36,217 nt of DNA. It comes from Chthonomonadia bacterium (lineage in GTDB: Bacteria > Armatimonadota > HRBIN16). A model generated the notes under the pieces. The model had not been told where the DNA came from, made no database searches, and saw nothing but the letters and a program-made list of their open reading frames with translations. Location of the stretch: contig JABUFA010000036.1 of assembly GCA_013314755.1 (NCBI GenBank), positions 1 to 36,217 of the forward strand. The letters are read 5' to 3'. Of this stretch, positions 1,278-10,547 are shown in pieces; positions within the stretch are counted from its first letter, which is position 1, and each line of letters begins with the position of its first letter. Position numbers and translations under genes: made by a program.

Positions 1278-4200
1278 TCAGAGAACGACCAGCTCGGCGC
1301 CGCCGAGCAGACCGTAGTTGAAGCTGTTCAGCTCCTCGCGCAGGAACCATTCCTCCTGGAAGGCGTTGGGACCTGCCCACATGTTATCATCGCCGTTCTT
1401 CTCATGGAGCGGTCCCCAGGCGTTCTGCAGAGAGGAGACCACCTCGATGTCCAGCCGGTTCGTTCCCTGCCGAACCAGAGGCGTCAGCTCCAGCACATAC
1501 GGTCGCCAGAGGATTTTGCCCGCGTCGCTGTCGTTCAGGCGCACCTTGAACAGGATGCCGGATGGGCGAACCAGTCGCAGGAATACCCGCCTGCCCGAAG
1601 GGGCTTCGAACGTGGCATGGTATACCATCCTGCCCGTGTAGAAAGGATAGCCCTGCATGCTCCATGAACCGACACGCAGGCTCTTCGGCTCCGATACCAG
1701 CTTGCCCCGGAAGGGGTCCACCATCGCCACGCCGAAGTCGCCCACCACGTAGGCGGTCTCTATCTCAGTGAGGAAGTCGTAGTGAACGGCAAAGTCCACC
1801 ACGTTCTCGCCCTTTCGCACGAGGTCGGTGACCTCCACCATCTGGAAGCCCCTGTCCCAGTACCAGCCCAGGTCCTGCGGGCTATCCCACGAGATGCGTG
1901 AGCCGTTGACCCAGATTTTGCCCTTATGCAGGTCTTCGATCACCACATAGCTCTTCGGTCGCTCGAGGTCGCTGAGGAATCGGTAGCGCAGAACGATGTC
2001 CCCTCCCTTGCCCTCGAAGAGCTTCTTGCGGATAGCCACCCAGGGCTGCCACTGCAGGGTCTCTTCGGTGCCGAACCGCTTTGCCAGCGCCTTGCGCACG
2101 CGCCACTCGTAATCCTCCGGTTCGAAGGTGTTCCCCCCGTCAAACGAGACGCTGATGCGGTCCATCACCAGCACGTTCAGATCGGTGCGGGTGAAGGCGA
2201 ACTCGTCGGACAGAGGGATGACCTCGCCCTGTCGCAGGTCGGGCAGGCGTTCCTCTACCTGTGCGGTGGGCACATCCGCGCCGACCGTCAGCAACAGCGA
2301 ACCGCACGGGGGCAGGCTGAACTCGTAGCGCAGGTCGTTGCCCACTCGGCGCGGCACCACGCGCTCACAGGTTCCCTCCACCGCGTTCCACTTCAGCACA
2401 GGCTTGCCTGCCGCGCCCTTCAGCGTCAGCACGTAATCCCTGCCCGCGTTGCGGTCGGAGTTGACGATGAAGAAGATGTGCTCCTCGCCGTCAACACGAT
2501 GCTGGAGGTAGGTCATTGGCACTGCTCTGCCGTCCGCACCTTTCAGGGTAAAGTCACCCGGGGCGATTTCGTCGATGGCGTTCTGAATCGCCTCCACAGC
2601 GCACGGCAGAGAGCGTACATTGGGATGGGATGCCAGCTCCACCCACTTCTCGCGAGCAGGCTCACAGTCCAGCTCGCCCGGCAGTTCTCCCAGCAGGATG
2701 ACCTTCCCGCCATTGTGTGCAAACTGCTTCAACAGTTCGTACGTCTTCGGGCGCCAGGTGGTTGCCGGCGGAACCACCACCACCCGATAGCTCATCTCGC
2801 CGATGATGAAGCGGTCGCCCTGCACACTGCCCATATCCTGGATGTAGCCCTCGTCGCCCAGGTCGCAGTCGTAGCCGGCGTTGAGGATGGCATCCAGCGT
2901 CTTGCGCATCAGGCTGTCCAGTTCGTCCGCCGCGCGCATATCGGGCGTGGGCACATCCAGCGGGGTGCGCCGGGCGTTATCCTGCACCTGCCCCTGCACG
3001 TCCACGCCGAAGCGGCGGGCGGCGGTTGCGCTTTCTATGGAGTGTAGAAGCAGAATGTCCACCGATGCCCTGCCCCGCGTCAGCGCGTATGCCACGCGCG
3101 TGAAGTAATCGTTCAGCGGGTTCAGCTCCTTCCAGTAGGTCTGCTGGTAGTTCCAGTTGGGCGGATAGTCGCGCTTGCGTCGCCCCTTGCCGGAGTACCA
3201 GGTGAGGTGCGGGCAGAAGAAGTTCGCCCCCAGCACCAGGTCATAGTCGCCCAGCCACTTGAAGTCCTCAAAGGTGTTGGTGTGGCGGCTGACGCCGAAG
3301 ATTTCGGTCAACACCCGCTTCCTGCCCAGTTGCCTCGCCGCGGAGGAGACCTGCTTCACGGTGAACAGGTGATTGTGCGCCACCCGGCAGAGATGATCAA
3401 TGCCCGGTGCCTGCTGGTAGCGATAGTGCGCCATGATGCCCCCGTAGTGGCACACGATTTGCCCGTGGAAGGTGTCTTCGGCGTTGTAGTGCCCGGTGTG
3501 TTCCAGTCCATGCGCTTCGCACCATTCGTAGATGGGCTTGCTGTACGCCTCCAGGAACTGACGCAGGATGGTGCGATGGATGAGCAGGCGAATCTTGCGG
3601 GCAGGTGCTCCGTCAAAGAACAGGTACGGCAGGTCCTGCCAGAAGTCGCGCCCCGTCCACTCGCGGTAGCGGTCGGGCAAGCCTTCGTACCAGGCGAAAC
3701 CGTTGGGCGCCGAGGGAACCTGCGGCTCGTCGGTGAAGATGCCCGGAATGCGCTTGCCGAACTCCTCGCCCAGCTCCCTGTAGTATCGCTCGTGGGTCAG
3801 GCGGATGAACTCGCGCATCGCCTCCGGGTTCAGCAGGTTGGCATAAGACTCGCCCCCCCACCACCCCGTTTTGGGCTGGTAGGTGCGTATCAGGAACAGT
3901 CTCTCAAACCCTCGCGCCGATTCCAGCCTGTCTAACGGGATTTGCTCGTATTCCAGCAAGTTGAGGCGGTCGCGCTTCTTGATAGCATAGCACGCGCGCA
4001 GTGCCTGGTCCTGATGCAGAGTGGGTTCTGGCTCGCCGGGCGCAACCAGCACCGCGTTCAGCGTGGCAGCGCGGTACTCATCCTTCATACCCGCCACCAG
4101 TCCACCCGCGTTGCCGCTGGGCCACAGGTCTTCATCGTACAGCCACAGGTAGCCGTCGTGCTCTTTCGCCGCCTGAAGCGCAGCGCGCATGCACTCGAAC

Positions 4201-4385
4201 CACTCTTTGCCCAGATACTCGGTAATCAGTCCGTGTCGCGAATGGAAGAACCCACCCGACAGTCCGACGCTTCGCATATCCGCCATCTGCCGGGCGACCT
4301 CAGCCGGGTCCAGTTTGTCGTTAATCGCCCAGAAGGGTGCCGGGCGCAGGATGCTTTCGGGATTTCGGAACGCCTCGGTGTTCAT
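1278..4385 (-). CDS. GH106-like glycoside hydrolase (alpha-L-rhamnosidase type)
   Basis: A 1035-residue protein resembling the GH106/'glycosyl hydrolase family 2 sugar-binding' group, whose characterised members remove alpha-L-rhamnose. Supporting features: the N-terminal segment FRNPESILRPAPFWAIND followed by a MADMRSVGLSGGFFHS strand (the usual 'RPxxYWxW ... M...G..G' opening of a TIM-barrel), YDEDLWPSGNAGG near residue 125, and GIFTDEPQVPS with Glu220, a candidate catalytic carboxylate. The C-terminal third reads as beta-sandwich carbohydrate-binding modules (for example residues ~800-900 and 930-1035). I see no signal peptide, so the enzyme is probably cytoplasmic or exported unconventionally, which is unusual for polysaccharide degradation. 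ATG 4385 has AGGAGG at good spacing. The substrate is inferred from family only and could be another deoxysugar or glycoside. Confidence 0.7.
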   Translation of the reverse strand: MNTEAFRNPESILRPAPFWAINDKLDPAEVARQMADMRSVGLSGGFFHSRHGLITEYLGKEWFECMRAALQAAKEHDGYLWLYDEDLWPSGNAGGLVAGMKDEYRAATLNAVLVAPGEPEPTLHQDQALRACYAIKKRDRLNLLEYEQIPLDRLESARGFERLFLIRTYQPKTGWWGGESYANLLNPEAMREFIRLTHERYYRELGEEFGKRIPGIFTDEPQVPSAPNGFAWYEGLPDRYREWTGRDFWQDLPYLFFDGAPARKIRLLIHRTILRQFLEAYSKPIYEWCEAHGLEHTGHYNAEDTFHGQIVCHYGGIMAHYRYQQAPGIDHLCRVAHNHLFTVKQVSSAARQLGRKRVLTEIFGVSRHTNTFEDFKWLGDYDLVLGANFFCPHLTWYSGKGRRKRDYPPNWNYQQTYWKELNPLNDYFTRVAYALTRGRASVDILLLHSIESATAARRFGVDVQGQVQDNARRTPLDVPTPDMRAADELDSLMRKTLDAILNAGYDCDLGDEGYIQDMGSVQGDRFIIGEMSYRVVVVPPATTWRPKTYELLKQFAHNGGKVILLGELPGELDCEPAREKWVELASHPNVRSLPCAVEAIQNAIDEIAPGDFTLKGADGRAVPMTYLQHRVDGEEHIFFIVNSDRNAGRDYVLTLKGAAGKPVLKWNAVEGTCERVVPRRVGNDLRYEFSLPPCGSLLLTVGADVPTAQVEERLPDLRQGEVIPLSDEFAFTRTDLNVLVMDRISVSFDGGNTFEPEDYEWRVRKALAKRFGTEETLQWQPWVAIRKKLFEGKGGDIVLRYRFLSDLERPKSYVVIEDLHKGKIWVNGSRISWDSPQDLGWYWDRGFQMVEVTDLVRKGENVVDFAVHYDFLTEIETAYVVGDFGVAMVDPFRGKLVSEPKSLRVGSWSMQGYPFYTGRMVYHATFEAPSGRRVFLRLVRPSGILFKVRLNDSDAGKILWRPYVLELTPLVRQGTNRLDIEVVSSLQNAWGPLHEKNGDDNMWAGPNAFQEEWFLREELNSFNYGLLGGAELVVL

Positions 4386-4617
4386 CGTTGCCTCCTGTTG
4401 GTCTGGTTCGGTTTGCCAGGTTCTTGTTCGCGACGCAGGTGATTTTCCCTTTACGAGAAGGATGTGGCGACGCTAATGCTCGCCGTGCGAGGGTTCGGAA
4501 GACTAACTGTTGGGCCTAACAAAAATTGGTCAAAAAAATGGCAAAAATTTGGTATTGACGAGGTGAGAGAGGGTAGGATACAATGGCAACAAGAAATCTC
4601 AGAAAGGTGGAATAGCA
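4386..4617. other. Divergent intergenic region
   Basis: This 232-base region separates the divergent GH106-like gene (minus) and the cysteine-rich cassette (plus). It holds the glycosidase ribosome-binding site (AGGAGG, minus strand), three A-tracts at 4521-4525, 4532-4538 and 4543-4547, and the plus-strand promoter described separately. I found no convincing minus-strand promoter or coding sequence in it. Confidence 0.6.
4555..4584 (+). promoter_or_regulatory. Sigma-70 type promoter with phased A-tracts
   Basis: TTGACG (4555-4560), an 18-base spacer and TACAAT (4579-4584), 33 bases before the ATG of the 12-cysteine protein. Just upstream, A-runs centred near 4523, 4535 and 4545 recur about once per helical turn, as in UP elements or curved DNA. 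No operator is recognised. Confidence 0.7.
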
Positions 4618-4986
4618 ATGCTCTATCGCAAAGCTGCGTTTGGCTACTTACTGCGAGTGGTATTGATATTGTGCGCAGCGGTGCTTCTAGACATGGTGAT
4701 TGTTCTGTTCCCGGTTCGTGTGTGGGCAGCGATCCCTAACACCTGTGAAGTCGCCTGCAAAGACATCAACGACTGCGGGTGCATCCCCTTTTACTCCAAC
4801 AACCAATTGGTAGATTGCCTGCTGGGATGCAACGAAACAAGAACAGTGGAGACATGGGAGTGCTGTGGCGCAGGCAAAATGGGGTTCACCCGTCAGCGTT
4901 TCTACGACTGCAACAACGACGGACGAACTGACTGCGAATGCAAATTCAAAACGTGGATACATGACCAAGACTGCTACTCGCTGTAG
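4618..4986 (+). CDS. Exported 12-cysteine protein of unknown function
   Basis: A 122-residue protein with a long hydrophobic N-terminus (residues ~8-38, candidate cleavage after VWA near residue 37 or an uncleaved anchor) and a mature part of ~85 residues holding 12 cysteines: 43, 47, 53, 55, 67, 71, 82, 83, 98, 106, 108, 119. The even count and export suggest six disulfides. Only two tryptophans (80, 113) lie in the mature part. DCNNDGRTDCEC resembles a Ca-loop-like or disulfide-rich turn. CxC and CC pairs and two Trp recall the methylamine dehydrogenase light chain (12 Cys, Trp-derived cofactor), but cysteine spacing is not collinear and I do not assign it. ATG follows AAAGGTGG at good spacing. 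First gene of a cassette with a pseudopilin and redoxin-like genes; the latter could shape its disulfides. Confidence 0.75.
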   Translation: MLYRKAAFGYLLRVVLILCAAVLLDMVIVLFPVRVWAAIPNTCEVACKDINDCGCIPFYSNNQLVDCLLGCNETRTVETWECCGAGKMGFTRQRFYDCNNDGRTDCECKFKTWIHDQDCYSL

Positions 4987-4998
4987 TGTGAGGGGGCG

Positions 4999-5634
4999 AT
5001 GATCAGGGTGTGCAACAAGACCAACAGGCAAGCTTTTTCTCTAATTGAAGTCATGGTGGTGATAAGTATCATCGCCACCCTTTCCGCTCTGCTTTACCCT
5101 GTTGTCTCACACAGCCTGCGACGCACCTATGTCACCAGCTGCCAGAGCCAGCTGCACCAGATTGGGCAGGCAATCAAAATGTATCAGGCGGACTATCAGA
5201 GCGAGGACTGGCCGTGCAGGCTGTCGGCCCTGGCTCCACAATACCTGTCGGAGAGCCTGTATGTGTGTCCGTGGGCGAACCGGGTAGCGGGTGGTGCGAT
5301 CAGCCGGTTACAGGAGCAATGGAAAGGCAAGTGGATCTCCTACTTTGTCTTTTGCCGCAGAGGTCTGGACGATTTAGCAAACAGGGACGGCTCGATCACC
5401 TTTACCGAGATAATGATGGAGCGTGGAGAACGCACGCCCATGGTCATCTGCCGAGAGCATCGCGAGCCGTTTACCATCCGTTCTAATTACCCTATCGTTC
5501 CCTGCGCCTGGGACTTCCCCGAAGCACCAGTAGTTGTGCTTCGCAAGGACGGAAGTGTGGATTTAAGCATGAAAGGTGGAACACAGTGTCACTTCACGTT
5601 CCGGGATACGCTGGCAGACGCATGGGAACTATAG
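4999..5634 (+). CDS. Type II secretion/pilin-like protein (prepilin N-terminus), cysteine-rich
   Basis: A 211-residue protein with a class III prepilin leader: short basic head, then QA|FSLIEVMVVISIIATL at residues ~12-28, including the Phe+1 and Glu+5 needed for prepilin peptidase cleavage and methylation. The residue at -1 is Ala rather than the usual Gly. The body resembles GspG/H-type pseudopilins of the DUF1559-like kind (QSQLHQIGQAIKMYQADY helix, then a globular domain with a YVCPWA segment). It carries eight cysteines (one in the leader, seven after it), more than usual for a pseudopilin. Start ATG at 4999, 13 bases after the preceding stop. No pilin motor or secretin gene is nearby. 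It is probably part of the cassette rather than a core type II secretion component; what it assembles with is unknown. Confidence 0.8.
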   Translation: MIRVCNKTNRQAFSLIEVMVVISIIATLSALLYPVVSHSLRRTYVTSCQSQLHQIGQAIKMYQADYQSEDWPCRLSALAPQYLSESLYVCPWANRVAGGAISRLQEQWKGKWISYFVFCRRGLDDLANRDGSITFTEIMMERGERTPMVICREHREPFTIRSNYPIVPCAWDFPEAPVVVLRKDGSVDLSMKGGTQCHFTFRDTLADAWEL

Positions 5635-5662
5635 TTACGGTCCTGAGAGGCACGTCAACAGG

Positions 5663-6227
5663 ATGCTTGCAAAGATAAAGATACTCGTATTGACGGGCTG
5701 TGTGCTCTGTCTGGGAGTAGCATACCTTGCTGTTAGCACCGCAGACCGACGCACCTTACAGGAGCTGGGTTTACTGGACCCCGCACGCACACAGCAGGTA
5801 CTGGCACGCGACACCGCACCGAAAGGGTTACCCGTGCAACATGTTGCACGCTACTTGAGAGAGATTGACCCTGCTGGTCATGGAGCGGGGACGGTTCCTG
5901 CTGGTGTATGCTTTCGGATGTACGGGTTGTGGTGAAACATCGGTGGACATGTGGGCGAAAGTGCTTTCCAATCAGAAGGAGGTCACCGGTGTGTTGGTCG
6001 TGCATGCGGAGGAGAGCCGCCTGCAGGAGGAGATCAAGCGGCGAGGCTGGCACATACCCGTGATAGCAGATGATGGCAGTATCGCAAAAGTACTGTCACC
6101 GCGTTTTTCTCCACAAGCGTTTGGCTTTGCAAGGGGTCGCCTCGTGTGGATACAGGAGACGCCAGGGACGCCGGAAAAAGATCTGTTTACCGAGTTTTGC
6201 AACAGGCAAGGTAAAGGATATGGTTAG
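5663..6227 (+). pseudogene. Redoxin-like membrane protein, split by a frameshift
   Basis: Two open segments look like one protein. From ATG 5663 (frame 2) come a basic head, a membrane segment (KILVLTGCVLCLGVAYLAV) and residues up to about 5862. The rest continues in frame 0 from about 5859 to TAG 6227, giving RGRFLLVYAFGCTGCGET, a thioredoxin-fold strand-plus-CxxC (C-T-G-C) motif, then the strand VTGVLVVHAEES and a PVIADDGSIAKVL region as in redoxins. The break falls in TTGAGAGAGATTG at 5855-5867; restoring one GA pair would join the frames as ...LRERLTLLV.... Without repair the first frame ends at 5935, before the CxxC. Alternatives are two overlapping genes (TTG 5865 or ATG 5880 start) or a sequencing error. 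Predicted role is envelope thiol-disulfide exchange, inferred from the motif. Confidence 0.65.
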
Positions 6228-6885
6228 AGACCTTATCCGTTCCGTTTCGTGGAGCAAGGTGCTGCTCGTGCTGGTGCTGATACTGGTGCCCGCGTTGACC
6301 TGGCGGTACGTGTTGTGGCGAGAACATCAAAACCGCCTGCGCCTGATACAGATGGAAAGGCAGGAACGGCGAAACTGGCAGGAGCGCTTCGAGCAGATAC
6401 GCCTGGCGCGGCACGGGATAGCGCCCGGTTATCCGCTCCAGATTCCGAACGCGGTGATAGAGAGCGTAGGAGAGGTTCCGTCGCGCCCAGCGGGAAAGCC
6501 GATGCTGATATGGGCGCCGCACTGGTTTGAGGGCTCTCCTGCATGGGAGGCGAAAGGGTGGCAGAGATGGCGCGAACTGCTGACCAAGTGCCCAGATTTG
6601 CTGCTAGTGGGTGAGTTAACCTGCTGTCCTGAAGACGCCTCCACCTATCGCAGGCAACTGCAGAGATTAGTCACCCAGCTCGGTCACCCGCGCATCGGCT
6701 TCTGGCTGGCGATGAATGCCCAGTGGTGTAAGAATGAGATGCAGGATCCGTTCCGAGCAGGCTGGGTGATATTGATAGACAGTCGGGGCATCGTCCGCCT
6801 CACGACCAAGTTGAAGCGACTCACACCCTCCGAACAGGAAATCCGCCTGCTTGCCCAGGAATACGCCCGCCTGTCCACCCCATAA
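6220..6885 (+). CDS. Membrane-anchored protein, possible thioredoxin fold without CxxC
   Basis: I do not recognise this 221-residue protein with certainty. It has one N-terminal membrane anchor (residues ~10-30, VLLVLVLILVPALTW), a charged coiled stretch rich in Arg, Gln and Glu (~35-65) and an extracytoplasmic domain. Strand-like segments PMLIWAPHWF, DLLLVGELTCCPED and RAGWVILIDSRGIVRLTT suggest an AhpC/TSA-like or thioredoxin-like fold; the last piece matches the 'xxxFLIDxxGxIv' strand of redoxins. Cysteines are present (CP, CC, WC) but no CxxC. ATG 6220 is preceded by AAGGTAAAGG and overlaps the previous stop by 8 bases, so translation is coupled to the redoxin-like gene. Function unknown; cassette membership is well supported by spacing. 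Confidence 0.6.
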   Translation: MVRDLIRSVSWSKVLLVLVLILVPALTWRYVLWREHQNRLRLIQMERQERRNWQERFEQIRLARHGIAPGYPLQIPNAVIESVGEVPSRPAGKPMLIWAPHWFEGSPAWEAKGWQRWRELLTKCPDLLLVGELTCCPEDASTYRRQLQRLVTQLGHPRIGFWLAMNAQWCKNEMQDPFRAGWVILIDSRGIVRLTTKLKRLTPSEQEIRLLAQEYARLSTP

Positions 6886-6975
6886 GCGGGTAGCTGGTTC
6901 TCCATAACACACGGCACCATTTTCCCCGCCTTCGGGATTTTCGAAAAAAAATCCTAAAAAATCCCTCTCAAATCA

Positions 6976-6996
6976 CTTGACAATGATACACTCAAG
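6976..6996 (+). promoter_or_regulatory. HAIR-like HspR operator
   Basis: CTTGACA (6976-6982), 7 bases, ACTCAAG (6990-6996). This fits the HspR-associated inverted repeat CTTGAGT-N7-ACTCAAG with two mismatches in the left arm; the dyad is also visible as CACTTGA...TCAAGTG (6974-6998). It covers the -35 box and spacer of the dnaK promoter. An HspR gene ends the operon, which supports the assignment. Confidence 0.8.
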
Positions 6997-7005
6997 TGGT
7001 ATAAT
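6977..7005 (+). promoter_or_regulatory. Consensus promoter of the dnaK operon
   Basis: A perfect TTGACA (6977-6982), 17-base spacer, perfect TATAAT (7000-7005), 50 bases before the dnaK ATG. A-runs at 6944-6951 and 6956-6961 lie upstream like an UP element. Such a strong housekeeping promoter is expected when heat-shock control is by repression. A second small dyad, AATGAG-N5-CTCATT (7023-7039), lies in the leader. Confidence 0.85.
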
Positions 7006-7055
7006 AGTGCACGGAAAAACCGAATGAGAAGCACTCATTGAAGCGGAGGAAAGAT

Positions 7056-8882
<1,827 letters not shown>

Positions 8883-8892
8883 TCGGCAACAA

Positions 8893-8919
8893 CCTGCCTG
8901 CGGCTCGCCCGCAGGCAGG
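8893..8919 (+). other. Intergenic hairpin, dnaK-hsp20
   Basis: CCTGCCTGCGG (8893-8903) and CCGCAGGCAGG (8909-8919) form a perfect 11-bp stem with a 5-nt loop. No T-run follows, so it is unlikely to be a full terminator. It may protect the dnaK mRNA 3' end or mark a processing point between dnaK and hsp20. Confidence 0.65.
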
Positions 8920-8966
8920 ACAAGATAGCACCAACAACACTTCAACGGAGAAGGAGGTGACCGACG

Positions 8967-9422
8967 ATGGCATTGGTGCGCTGGGAGGACCCTGTGGACA
9001 TGCTGAATCGCTTTGAGCGCGAGATGAACGCGCTGATGAACCAGTTCTTCGGCAACGCCGCTGCACGTCGGAGCGAGCCAACCCTGCCTCGCGTGTGGGC
9101 GCCGGCGGTAGACGTGCGCGAGGACGACAACGAGATTACCATCAACATGGAACTGCCGGGCGTGAAGCCCGAAGAGGTGGAGATCGAGCTGACGGGCGAC
9201 ACGCTGTGCGTCAAAGGCGAGCGCAAGTTCCAGGATGAGGAGCGCCGCAAGGACTACGTGCGCATCGAGCGTGCGTATGGCACCTTCCAGCGGTCGTTCA
9301 CGCTGGGTACGCCTATTGACGCCGAGAAGGTGACGGCGCACTACAAGGACGGCGTGCTGACCATCACCCTGCCCAAAGCGGAGCAGGTGCGTCCGAAGAA
9401 GGTGCAGGTGAAGGCTGGGTAA
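8967..9422 (+). CDS. Small heat-shock protein, Hsp20/alpha-crystallin family
   Basis: A 151-residue ATP-independent holdase that keeps unfolding proteins soluble for DnaK. The alpha-crystallin domain runs from about residue 45 to the end: PAVDVREDDNEITINMELPGVKPEEVEIELTG-type strands, GERKFQDEE, YGTFQRSFTLG and the conserved HYKDGVLTITLPKAE near the C-terminus. The N-terminal region (WEDPVDMLNRFEREMNALMNQFF) is the usual amphipathic substrate-binding arm. AAGGAGGTGA gives a very strong ribosome-binding site before ATG 8967, consistent with high expression. It takes the operon position that grpE holds in actinobacterial dnaK-grpE-dnaJ-hspR operons. Confidence 0.96.
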   Translation: MALVRWEDPVDMLNRFEREMNALMNQFFGNAAARRSEPTLPRVWAPAVDVREDDNEITINMELPGVKPEEVEIELTGDTLCVKGERKFQDEERRKDYVRIERAYGTFQRSFTLGTPIDAEKVTAHYKDGVLTITLPKAEQVRPKKVQVKAG

Positions 9423-9446
9423 TCCCCCTTCACCACCAGGCGAAGA

Positions 9447-9476
9447 GGGGCAGGGCGGCGGCAACTGCCCTGCCCC
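9447..9476 (+). other. Intergenic hairpin, hsp20-dnaJ
   Basis: GGGGCAGGGC (9447-9456) and GCCCTGCCCC (9467-9476) form a perfect 10-bp stem with a 10-nt loop, followed by ATTATAATAAC. The following tract is AT-rich but has few T residues in a row, so it may act as a partial terminator or an mRNA-stabilising element that sets the hsp20:dnaJ ratio. Confidence 0.6.
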
Positions 9477-9509
9477 ATTATAATAACAGGATAGAGGTGG
9501 CGAGGCAAA

Positions 9510-10547
9510 ATGAACTTCAAATACAAGGACTACTATGCGATATTAGGCGTGCCACGTAACGCCACCGAGAAGGAGATTAAACAGGCGTATCGCCGGCTGG
9601 CTCGCAAGTACCACCCGGACGTGAACCCGGGCGACAAGAGCGCAGAGGAGAAGTTCAAAGAGATCAGCGAGGCGTACGAGGTCCTCTCCGACCCGGAGAA
9701 GCGGGCGAAGTACGACCAGTACGGCGAGATGTGGAAGTACTACAGCGAACAACAGCAACAGCCTGGCGGATTCTCCGGCGGTGGCGGATGGCAGGACCTG
9801 CGCGATTTCGGTTTCGGTGGGCTGGGCGACCTGTTCGCCACGCTGTTCGGCGACGTCTTCGGGCGCCAGAACACTACCGACACCGATTTCGGCTCGCCTT
9901 TCGCCGCCTCGCTGGACATTGAATATCCAATTGAAATCTCCTTAGAGGAGGCATACTCGGGCGCGACTCGCACGCTGGCGCTGACCGTGCAGGATACCTG
10001 TCCGCAGTGTGGAGGCACCGGTGCGTCGCGCACGCGAAGCGGTTACTACACACTGGGACAGCCCTGCCCGAACTGCCATGGGCGAGGAAGCATCCCACGC
10101 AACAAGCGGCTGGAGGTGCGCATTCCTGCCGGCGTGCAGGAAGGCTCCAAAATCCGCCTTGCGGGCGAAGGGGCTACCGGACGTGACGGACGGCGCGGCG
10201 ACCTGTACCTGCGCGTGCATATCCGACCGCATCCGACCTTCGAACGCAAGGGCGATGACCTGTATGTGGAGATAGACGTGCCGTACACCACCGCCGCGCT
10301 GGGCGGCGAGGTGCGCGTGCCCACCATGAAGGGCAGTGTGACCATGAAAGTGCCGCCGGGCACGCAAAGCGGACAGGTGTTTCGCTTAGCCGGGCAGGGC
10401 ATGCCGCGCCTGAAGGGCGGAGGCTACGGCGACCTGTATGCCCGGGTACGCATTACCGTGCCGCGCACATTGACCGCCCGCGAGCGCGACCTGCTTCAGC
10501 AGCTGGCACAGCTGCACGGCACGGCAACAACGACACGTACATCCTGA
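9510..10547 (+). CDS. dnaJ: DnaJ-family co-chaperone with half zinc centre
   Basis: Hsp40 co-chaperone that delivers substrates to DnaK and stimulates its ATPase. The 345-residue protein has a J domain (residues ~6-71) with HPD at 35-37, a Gly/Phe-rich linker (86-107), and C-terminal substrate-binding domains I and II ([31 protein letters not shown]). Between them are only two CxxCxGxG units, CPQCGGTG (C164, C167) and CPNCHGRG (C186, C189), where canonical DnaJ has four. It could therefore bind one zinc ion rather than two, an intermediate between DnaJ and the zinc-free CbpA type. Start ATG 9510 has GATAGAGGTGG upstream. Third gene of the HspR-controlled operon. Confidence 0.92.

Follow-up and report, generated by a model that had tools for sequence, protein, structure and literature searches.

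Does an exported protein with twelve cysteines, encoded next to a pseudopilin and two thioredoxin-like proteins, belong to a dedicated system of the bacterial envelope? The question is raised by positions 4555-6885 of a contig of 36,217 nucleotides from a Chthonomonadia bacterium of the phylum Armatimonadota (JABUFA010000036.1), the whole of which is here called the window, and for which a preliminary description made from the letters alone had proposed an oxidative folding or assembly system. Judged by sequence comparison, the locus represents an unnamed Armatimonadota cassette in a divergent and partly broken form, and homologues in sister species, ratios of nonsynonymous to synonymous substitution (dN/dS) and a phylum-wide gene association place it beyond chance.

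The window carries a cassette of four genes, all on the plus strand, with the following features (ORF, open reading frame).

4555..4584, plus strand: sigma-70-type promoter-like site TTGACG-18-TACAAT, from a consensus scan (10/12 positions; sequence match only)
4618..4986, plus strand: Cys-rich exported protein, 122 aa, with 12 Cys after the leader (ORF)
4999..5634, plus strand: prepilin-type pseudopilin, 211 aa, 8 Cys (PF07963 E 5e-7; TIGR02532 above cut-off)
5663..5935, plus strand: N-terminal anchor part of the redoxin, frame-shifted, with a stop at 5933-5935 (translation)
5865..6227, plus strand: CTGC thioredoxin-like domain of the redoxin in another frame, first ATG at 5880 (translation)
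6220..6885, plus strand: g4, predicted membrane-anchored thioredoxin-fold protein without CxxC, 221 aa (ORF; AlphaFold2 model; Foldseek)

The tight spacing reported in the preliminary description was confirmed, with 12 nt between the Cys-rich and pilin genes, 28 nt from the pilin gene to the redoxin start, and an overlap of redoxin and g4; of the four genes, all but that of the redoxin are open. The promoter ascribed to the cassette corresponds to the promoter-like site listed above, seen in a sequence scan. What had been taken for a single CxxC redoxin-like membrane protein proved to be read through a frameshift, since the membrane anchor (start 5663) and the CTGC domain (5865-6227) lie in different frames. 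In the homologue from HRbin16 (L014 323-883) the anchor and the CxxC domain share one intact frame; the anchor part of the window redoxin matches residues 11-74 of this protein, its CTGC domain is 60% identical to residues 76-181, and the DNA alignment places a net one-base shift near 5872-5880. Because the two parts are out of frame while the homologue reads through both, the window redoxin is, on this comparison, broken in this assembly, whether by decay into a pseudogene, by strain variation or by a fault of the assembly, and this copy of the cassette may therefore not work. Programmed frameshifting was considered as the cause and rejected, as there is no obvious slippery site and the relative is in frame.

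Profile searches covered 291 genomes of the Armatimonadota, most of them fragmented assemblies. A profile of the window and HRbin16 redoxins (A3) found genomes G071 (E 8.8e-28) and G013 (9e-10) from other families, both with three neighbors at the redoxin, namely a pilin, an exported protein with 12 Cys and a membrane protein of ~200 aa, and G071 with a sigma-like gene upstream of the cassette. A four-sequence redoxin profile gave further loci, nearly all with the same neighbors, and a profile of 22 redoxin sequences (A8) matched 118/291 genomes at E <= 1e-4, in a list whose weak end includes other thioredoxin-like proteins. We read 65 loci, from 45 genomes and 10 families, counting neighbors on the same strand within about 3 kb. 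A prepilin-type gene adjoins the redoxin at 63 loci, an exported protein with 8 or more Cys at 50, and the ~200-aa membrane partner at 42. Conservation of the neighbors together in relatives, on which the preliminary description had made its proposal depend, was thus observed (63/65 with a pilin, 50/65 with a Cys-rich protein).

The association was also found in 40 loci selected by A8 score alone, which serve as a fair test set because the pilin and partner models came from the first set and the window. Under strict rules and within 2.5 kb, a pilin was present at 38, a Cys-rich protein at 25 and a partner at 23, compared with 0, 1 and 0 at 20 control thioredoxin-like loci. The rule for Cys-rich proteins had first been tried on all loci together, test set included; being simple, it overlooks some such proteins and may let in a few chance ORFs.

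The closest coupling is between redoxin and pilin. From redoxin stop to pilin start the distance is -4 nt in 26/52 measurable cases and within 30 nt in 43/52, where the use of the start codon nearest to the redoxin stop favors small distances, not the exact value -4. Read from the sequence, the 4-nt overlap is an operon signature. The commonest order, redoxin-pilin-Cys-partner, occurs at 31 of the 65 loci. Distances among redoxins correlate with those among pilins (Mantel r 0.51), which shared species history alone could produce.

Sigma genes ahead of some cassettes suggest another role, namely envelope redox or stress sensing, in which thioredoxin-fold and Cys-rich proteins would control an adjacent sigma factor of the extracytoplasmic function (ECF) type. 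Such a gene precedes the cassette in G002, G007 and other members of the window's genus, as well as at loci L115, L149 and L150, and Armatimonadota such as C. calidirosea have many ECF factors (PMC4959169). On the other hand, only 8/65 loci showed a sigma gene in the 1.5 kb upstream (a lower bound, given a weak model and contig ends), no anti-sigma domain was recognized, and the window copy has no sigma gene. We regard sensing as very improbable.

Several genomes hold three redoxin loci each, namely G145 (L225, L226, L230), G075 (L206, L221, L165), G081 (L160, L207, L213) and G013 (L116, L148, L222); the cassette is therefore often multi-copy, with differing Cys-rich proteins. In the one-contig genome G054 (3.44 Mb), L197 3455-4721 holds a redoxin and an apparently shortened pilin with no Cys-rich gene detected, apparently another decaying copy.

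The redoxins, by sequence of thioredoxin type, form a very divergent family. In the 22-row alignment C90xxC93 is near-invariant, with Cys93 in every member and Cys90 in nearly all, and the motif LNAxWxPRxY follows the active site. Among the 65 redoxins, 56 have an N-terminal transmembrane-like segment and about 44 keep CxxC (40 by rule, plus the window, L204, L217 and L233, which lie outside the position range of the rule and were read directly); the remainder have CC, CxC, one Cys or none. The phylum-wide Cys-rich proteins align on about ten cysteines, a CC pair included. Searching with a model of the first set recovered 10 of the 40 test loci (E <= 1e-3) and no control locus, and the family is therefore real albeit very divergent. 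No Pfam or NCBIfam family covers the phylum-wide Cys-rich or partner proteins tested, and the 12-Cys protein of the window, whose membership of a known, unrelated family would have spoken against the preliminary description, likewise matched none in profile searches.

Small, exported and very divergent proteins on a conserved Cys framework with a CC pair, present in several cassettes per genome and followed directly by a membrane protein, could also be secreted antimicrobial-like, knottin-like effectors against competitors, matured by the redoxin in the manner of BdbB and sublancin and paired with the partner as immunity protein; the recurrent loss and decay in the window's genus described below would fit as well. 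However, no leader-peptidase transporter or known bacteriocin family was seen beside the Cys-rich gene, and the most constant neighbor is a pilin, which is absent from known peptide systems. Such a role appears improbable.

How does the window copy relate to this cassette? Its redoxin domain belongs to the A8 family (E 1.3e-34, itself a seed row; the gene is frame-shifted), for which the A3 matches in G071 and G013 are independent evidence from the opposite direction; its pilin matches the cassette pilin model (E 2e-43, likewise a seed row), and ORF 4618-4986, with 12 Cys, falls among the neighbors with at least 8. Its order, Cys-rich-pilin-redoxin-g4 with 28 nt between pilin and redoxin, differs from the usual order with the 4-nt overlap, and the phylum-wide partner model found no match in the window. 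By these comparisons the window copy is a permuted variant at the level of its genus (HRBIN16).

The Cys-rich protein of the preliminary description was confirmed, with an N-terminal hydrophobic leader, ending ..VRVWA, and then 12 cysteines. Relatives were confined to a protein in G002, 50% identical, and a fragment in G007. Near the C-terminal end lies an EF-hand-like D-x-N-x-D loop, and D97, N99, D101, D105, C106 and E107 are invariant in the C-terminal half in all three genus members; the residues look like an EF-hand-type loop, which might bind calcium. A likeness to NVEALA-type peptides and excalibur/EF-hand loops is also possible. Family searches (Pfam/NCBIfam) with this protein and g4 gave nothing above cut-off, neither had a confident match elsewhere in the 291 genomes, and a homology search of genome contigs with the Cys-rich protein yielded no confirmed relative. 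Sub-threshold profile matches in other genera were set aside, as those checked by six-frame reading, 5 of 8 loci, looked like chance. The AlphaFold2 model of the protein (three sequences; pLDDT 69, pTM 0.43) was of low confidence and was not used; Foldseek found no match to it (best E 0.6).

The eight-Cys pseudopilin was likewise confirmed, with PF07963 at 29.4 bits (cut-off 21.2) and TIGR02532 at 27.2 bits (cut-off 16.3); its homologues in the genus are 56-63% identical, and other cassette pilins mostly have 2-4 cysteines. For g4, the fourth protein of the preliminary description, AlphaFold2 (pLDDT 85) likewise predicts one N-terminal transmembrane helix followed by a thioredoxin-superfamily fold, with no CxxC in the sequence, and Foldseek matched the model to AhpC/TlpA-type structures (best E 1.4e-5). 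Its relatives include HRbin16 (BEHS01) and Armatimonadetes isolate RSWS16 (JAPWUZ01), both in the window's genus.

The taxonomic order of the window, within Armatimonadota, is represented by ten genomes, all of this one genus (the HRBIN16 group), of which three have the Cys-rich protein and five have g4. In G002, G007 and HRbin16 the cassette lies between era and herA with an ECF-type sigma gene ahead; in the latter two the site is split over two contigs, and their gene order is therefore inferred from G002. There the pilin has two TAG stops, g4 is frame-shifted, the sigma gene is shortened and the redoxin is absent. In G007 a truncated sigma gene runs into what is left of the Cys-rich gene, its C-terminal half, and pilin and g4 adjoin without a redoxin. 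A g4 remnant adjoins era in G005, and G006 has no cassette at the era-herA site. HRbin16 retains intact redoxin and g4 and a pilin cut by the contig end. The dN/dS values of cassette gene pairs, where computable, were 0.12-0.30, and the genes were therefore under purifying selection. As far as these sequences tell, the cassette is decaying in the window's sister genomes.

Might the window cassette itself be a decaying relic without function in its genome? The frame-shifted redoxin and the stops, frameshifts, deletions or remnants in sister genomes would fit this, whereas the three other genes are open, a promoter-like site is present and related genes were under purifying selection. We consider it a substantial possibility, if somewhat less than an even one, and it is compatible with a dedicated disulfide role of the cassette as a kind.

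Some further observations were made. In G006 the era-herA gap (L085 3514-4618) holds an apparent HEPN/MNT-type gene pair, read from DNA, and in HRbin16 a transposase-like ORF (L107 339-1661) lies between the sigma gene and era, adjoining the cassette site. Contigs of G001, G007 and G009 end inside or beside the cassette (L005 13850, L013 7722, L014 1, L106 1, L107 1), which hints at strain variation or repeats there. In a looser sigma/thioredoxin-like cassette of G006, the frame of a small exported protein is split where eight C follow one another (L105 1892-2354); this frameshift may be slippage or a sequencing error.

The genus also holds cassettes in the phylum-wide order at other genomic places. 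At L209 (G005:C5:173000-181500) 4131-7529, two pilins, two Cys-rich proteins and a sigma gene accompany a redoxin that lacks CxxC; L215 (G002:C13:29000-37500) 3936-6097 has a redoxin with one Cys, a pilin, a 16-Cys protein and a partner-like gene. Two second-tier pilins of the genus (L080, L081) were rejected as cassette members; by eye, they lie beside an O-antigen-ligase-like membrane protein.

The window cassette has a GH106-like gene on one side and dnaK on the other. A link to either was unsupported, as other genomes of the genus have dnaK without the cassette in the flank examined, and their cassette is at era/herA and not at dnaK (several dnaK flanks are short). The window dnaK has a sigma-70-type promoter of 12/12 consensus at 6977-7005, and positions 7038-10547 hold dnaK, a small-heat-shock-like ORF (8967-9422, by eye) and dnaJ.

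What, then, might the cassette do? The Cys-rich protein and the pseudopilin would be exported; the prepilin peptidase of the cell would process the pilin, and its type IV filament or type II secretion apparatus would handle it. On the outer side of the membrane, the tethered redoxin would make or rearrange disulfides in the Cys-rich protein and perhaps also in the pilin. The membrane partner would hold or mature the product, whose final place would be the cell surface or the surroundings of the cell. The window's genus has a changed order and a decaying cassette, in which a CxxC-less thioredoxin-fold protein would have taken the place of the partner. By sequence and by analogy, a dedicated module for disulfide folding or assembly at the envelope is the best explanation we can offer, at a likelihood just short of even; that the cassette folds or displays a disulfide-rich protein at the cell surface is probable. 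This part of the preliminary description gains from the recurrence of the cassette and from the CxxC kept in most redoxins; its proposed chemistry is weakened by the redoxins that lack the motif.

Several points weigh against such a module. Redoxins without CxxC in several cases still adjoin a Cys-rich protein. The window Cys-rich protein falls outside the shared Cys framework (hmmsearch E 12; no meaningful alignment by hhalign), and g4, tried as a homologue of the ~200-aa membrane partner, was rejected as it aligns only by force. The redoxin is frame-shifted in the window and absent from G002 and G007. Finally, while composition, coupling, conservation and decay can be read from the genes, we infer from them export and its route, the substrate relation, surface location and function.

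The loss of CxxC in some lineages, together with the CxxC-less g4, implies that thiol chemistry is not obligatory, which makes a role in assembly or anchoring the main rival. Pseudopilin and Cys-rich protein would here form a pilus tip, adhesin or matrix component, with the thioredoxin-fold protein as chaperone or anchor and the disulfides made by general oxidoreductases. Surface or filament assembly of this kind would explain why the tightest coupling is that of redoxin and pilin, why some redoxins lack CxxC as does the thioredoxin-fold g4, and why the window pilin itself carries 8 Cys. It fits poorly with the retention of CxxC by about two in three redoxins, very divergent as the family is, and with a Cys93 present in all 22 rows, and we hold it to be rather unlikely.

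A bolder proposal, which we put forward as possible and clearly below even, is a phylum-specific surface system in which thioredoxin-fold protein, co-translated pseudopilin and Cys-framework protein constitute one assembly unit, present in several copies per genome with diversified Cys-rich products (the profile scans covered Armatimonadota only). If true, this would amount to a type IV filament-linked, disulfide-locked surface or secreted protein of a new class, and no variant of any described secretion or peptide-maturation system.

Titles and abstracts on Armatimonadota with pseudopilin, thioredoxin, ECF sigma or cysteine-rich proteins described no such cassette (subscription literature lay mostly outside the search), and we found no named system of this composition, as the preliminary description had stated. 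Armatimonadota genomes hold dozens of pseudopilins, with 79 such genes in Fimbriimonas (PMC4072686), and in C. calidirosea functionally related genes are dispersed (PMC4959169); against this background a conserved, translationally coupled cassette stands out. It offers a handle on the role of some Armatimonadota pilins, brings to light two protein families that neither Pfam nor NCBIfam models, and makes it possible to ask directly if a thioredoxin coupled to a pilin acts on a single dedicated substrate.

Among known systems, Verru_Chthon cassette protein D (TIGR02596) is a pseudopilin that likewise belongs to a conserved cassette, in a different phylum; it matches only the N-terminus of the window pilin (20.1 bits, cut-off 70), and no other members of that cassette were seen at the window cassette. 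With DUF1559 and GspG-like pseudopilins the cassette pilins share the prepilin N-terminus and the stretch Cx(S)NLxQIGxAxxMYxxD. The window pilin is below the DUF1559 cut-off, which one cassette pilin (L156) exceeds, and far below that of GspG (TIGR01710; 31.7 bits, cut-off 88.85). Membrane-anchored TlpA/AhpC-TSA thioredoxins share their type of fold with g4 and, judged by weak Pfam matches and a weak sequence match to 2m72, with the redoxin. In contrast to these, the redoxin remains below Pfam cut-offs (no match of the window domain to PF00578 or PF08534; 21.9 against 26 bits for the G071 redoxin), has its own LNAxWxPRxY motif and has lost CxxC in some members.

In the sublancin operon (sunA-sunT-bdbA-sunS-bdbB), a small exported disulfide product is encoded with its oxidoreductase, BdbB (PMC6391423). 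Sublancin has a few Cys, whereas the cassette has a pilin and 8-16 Cys, and no transporter/peptidase or glycosyltransferase was seen in the annotated cassette neighborhoods looked at. In Bacillus subtilis competence, BdbD and BdbC are thiol-disulfide oxidoreductases partly dedicated to a prepilin-type protein, the pseudopilin ComGC (PMC8262900). They form a DsbA/DsbB-type pair encoded apart from comG, whereas the Armatimonadota cassette has one TlpA/AhpC-like protein co-translated with its pilin and a separate Cys-rich product adjoining. From BdbDC-ComGC and BdbB-sublancin together it follows that both halves of the proposed chemistry exist elsewhere. The mechanism suggested here would thus resemble known dedicated-oxidoreductase pairs, and if the cassette works otherwise it would be of its own kind.

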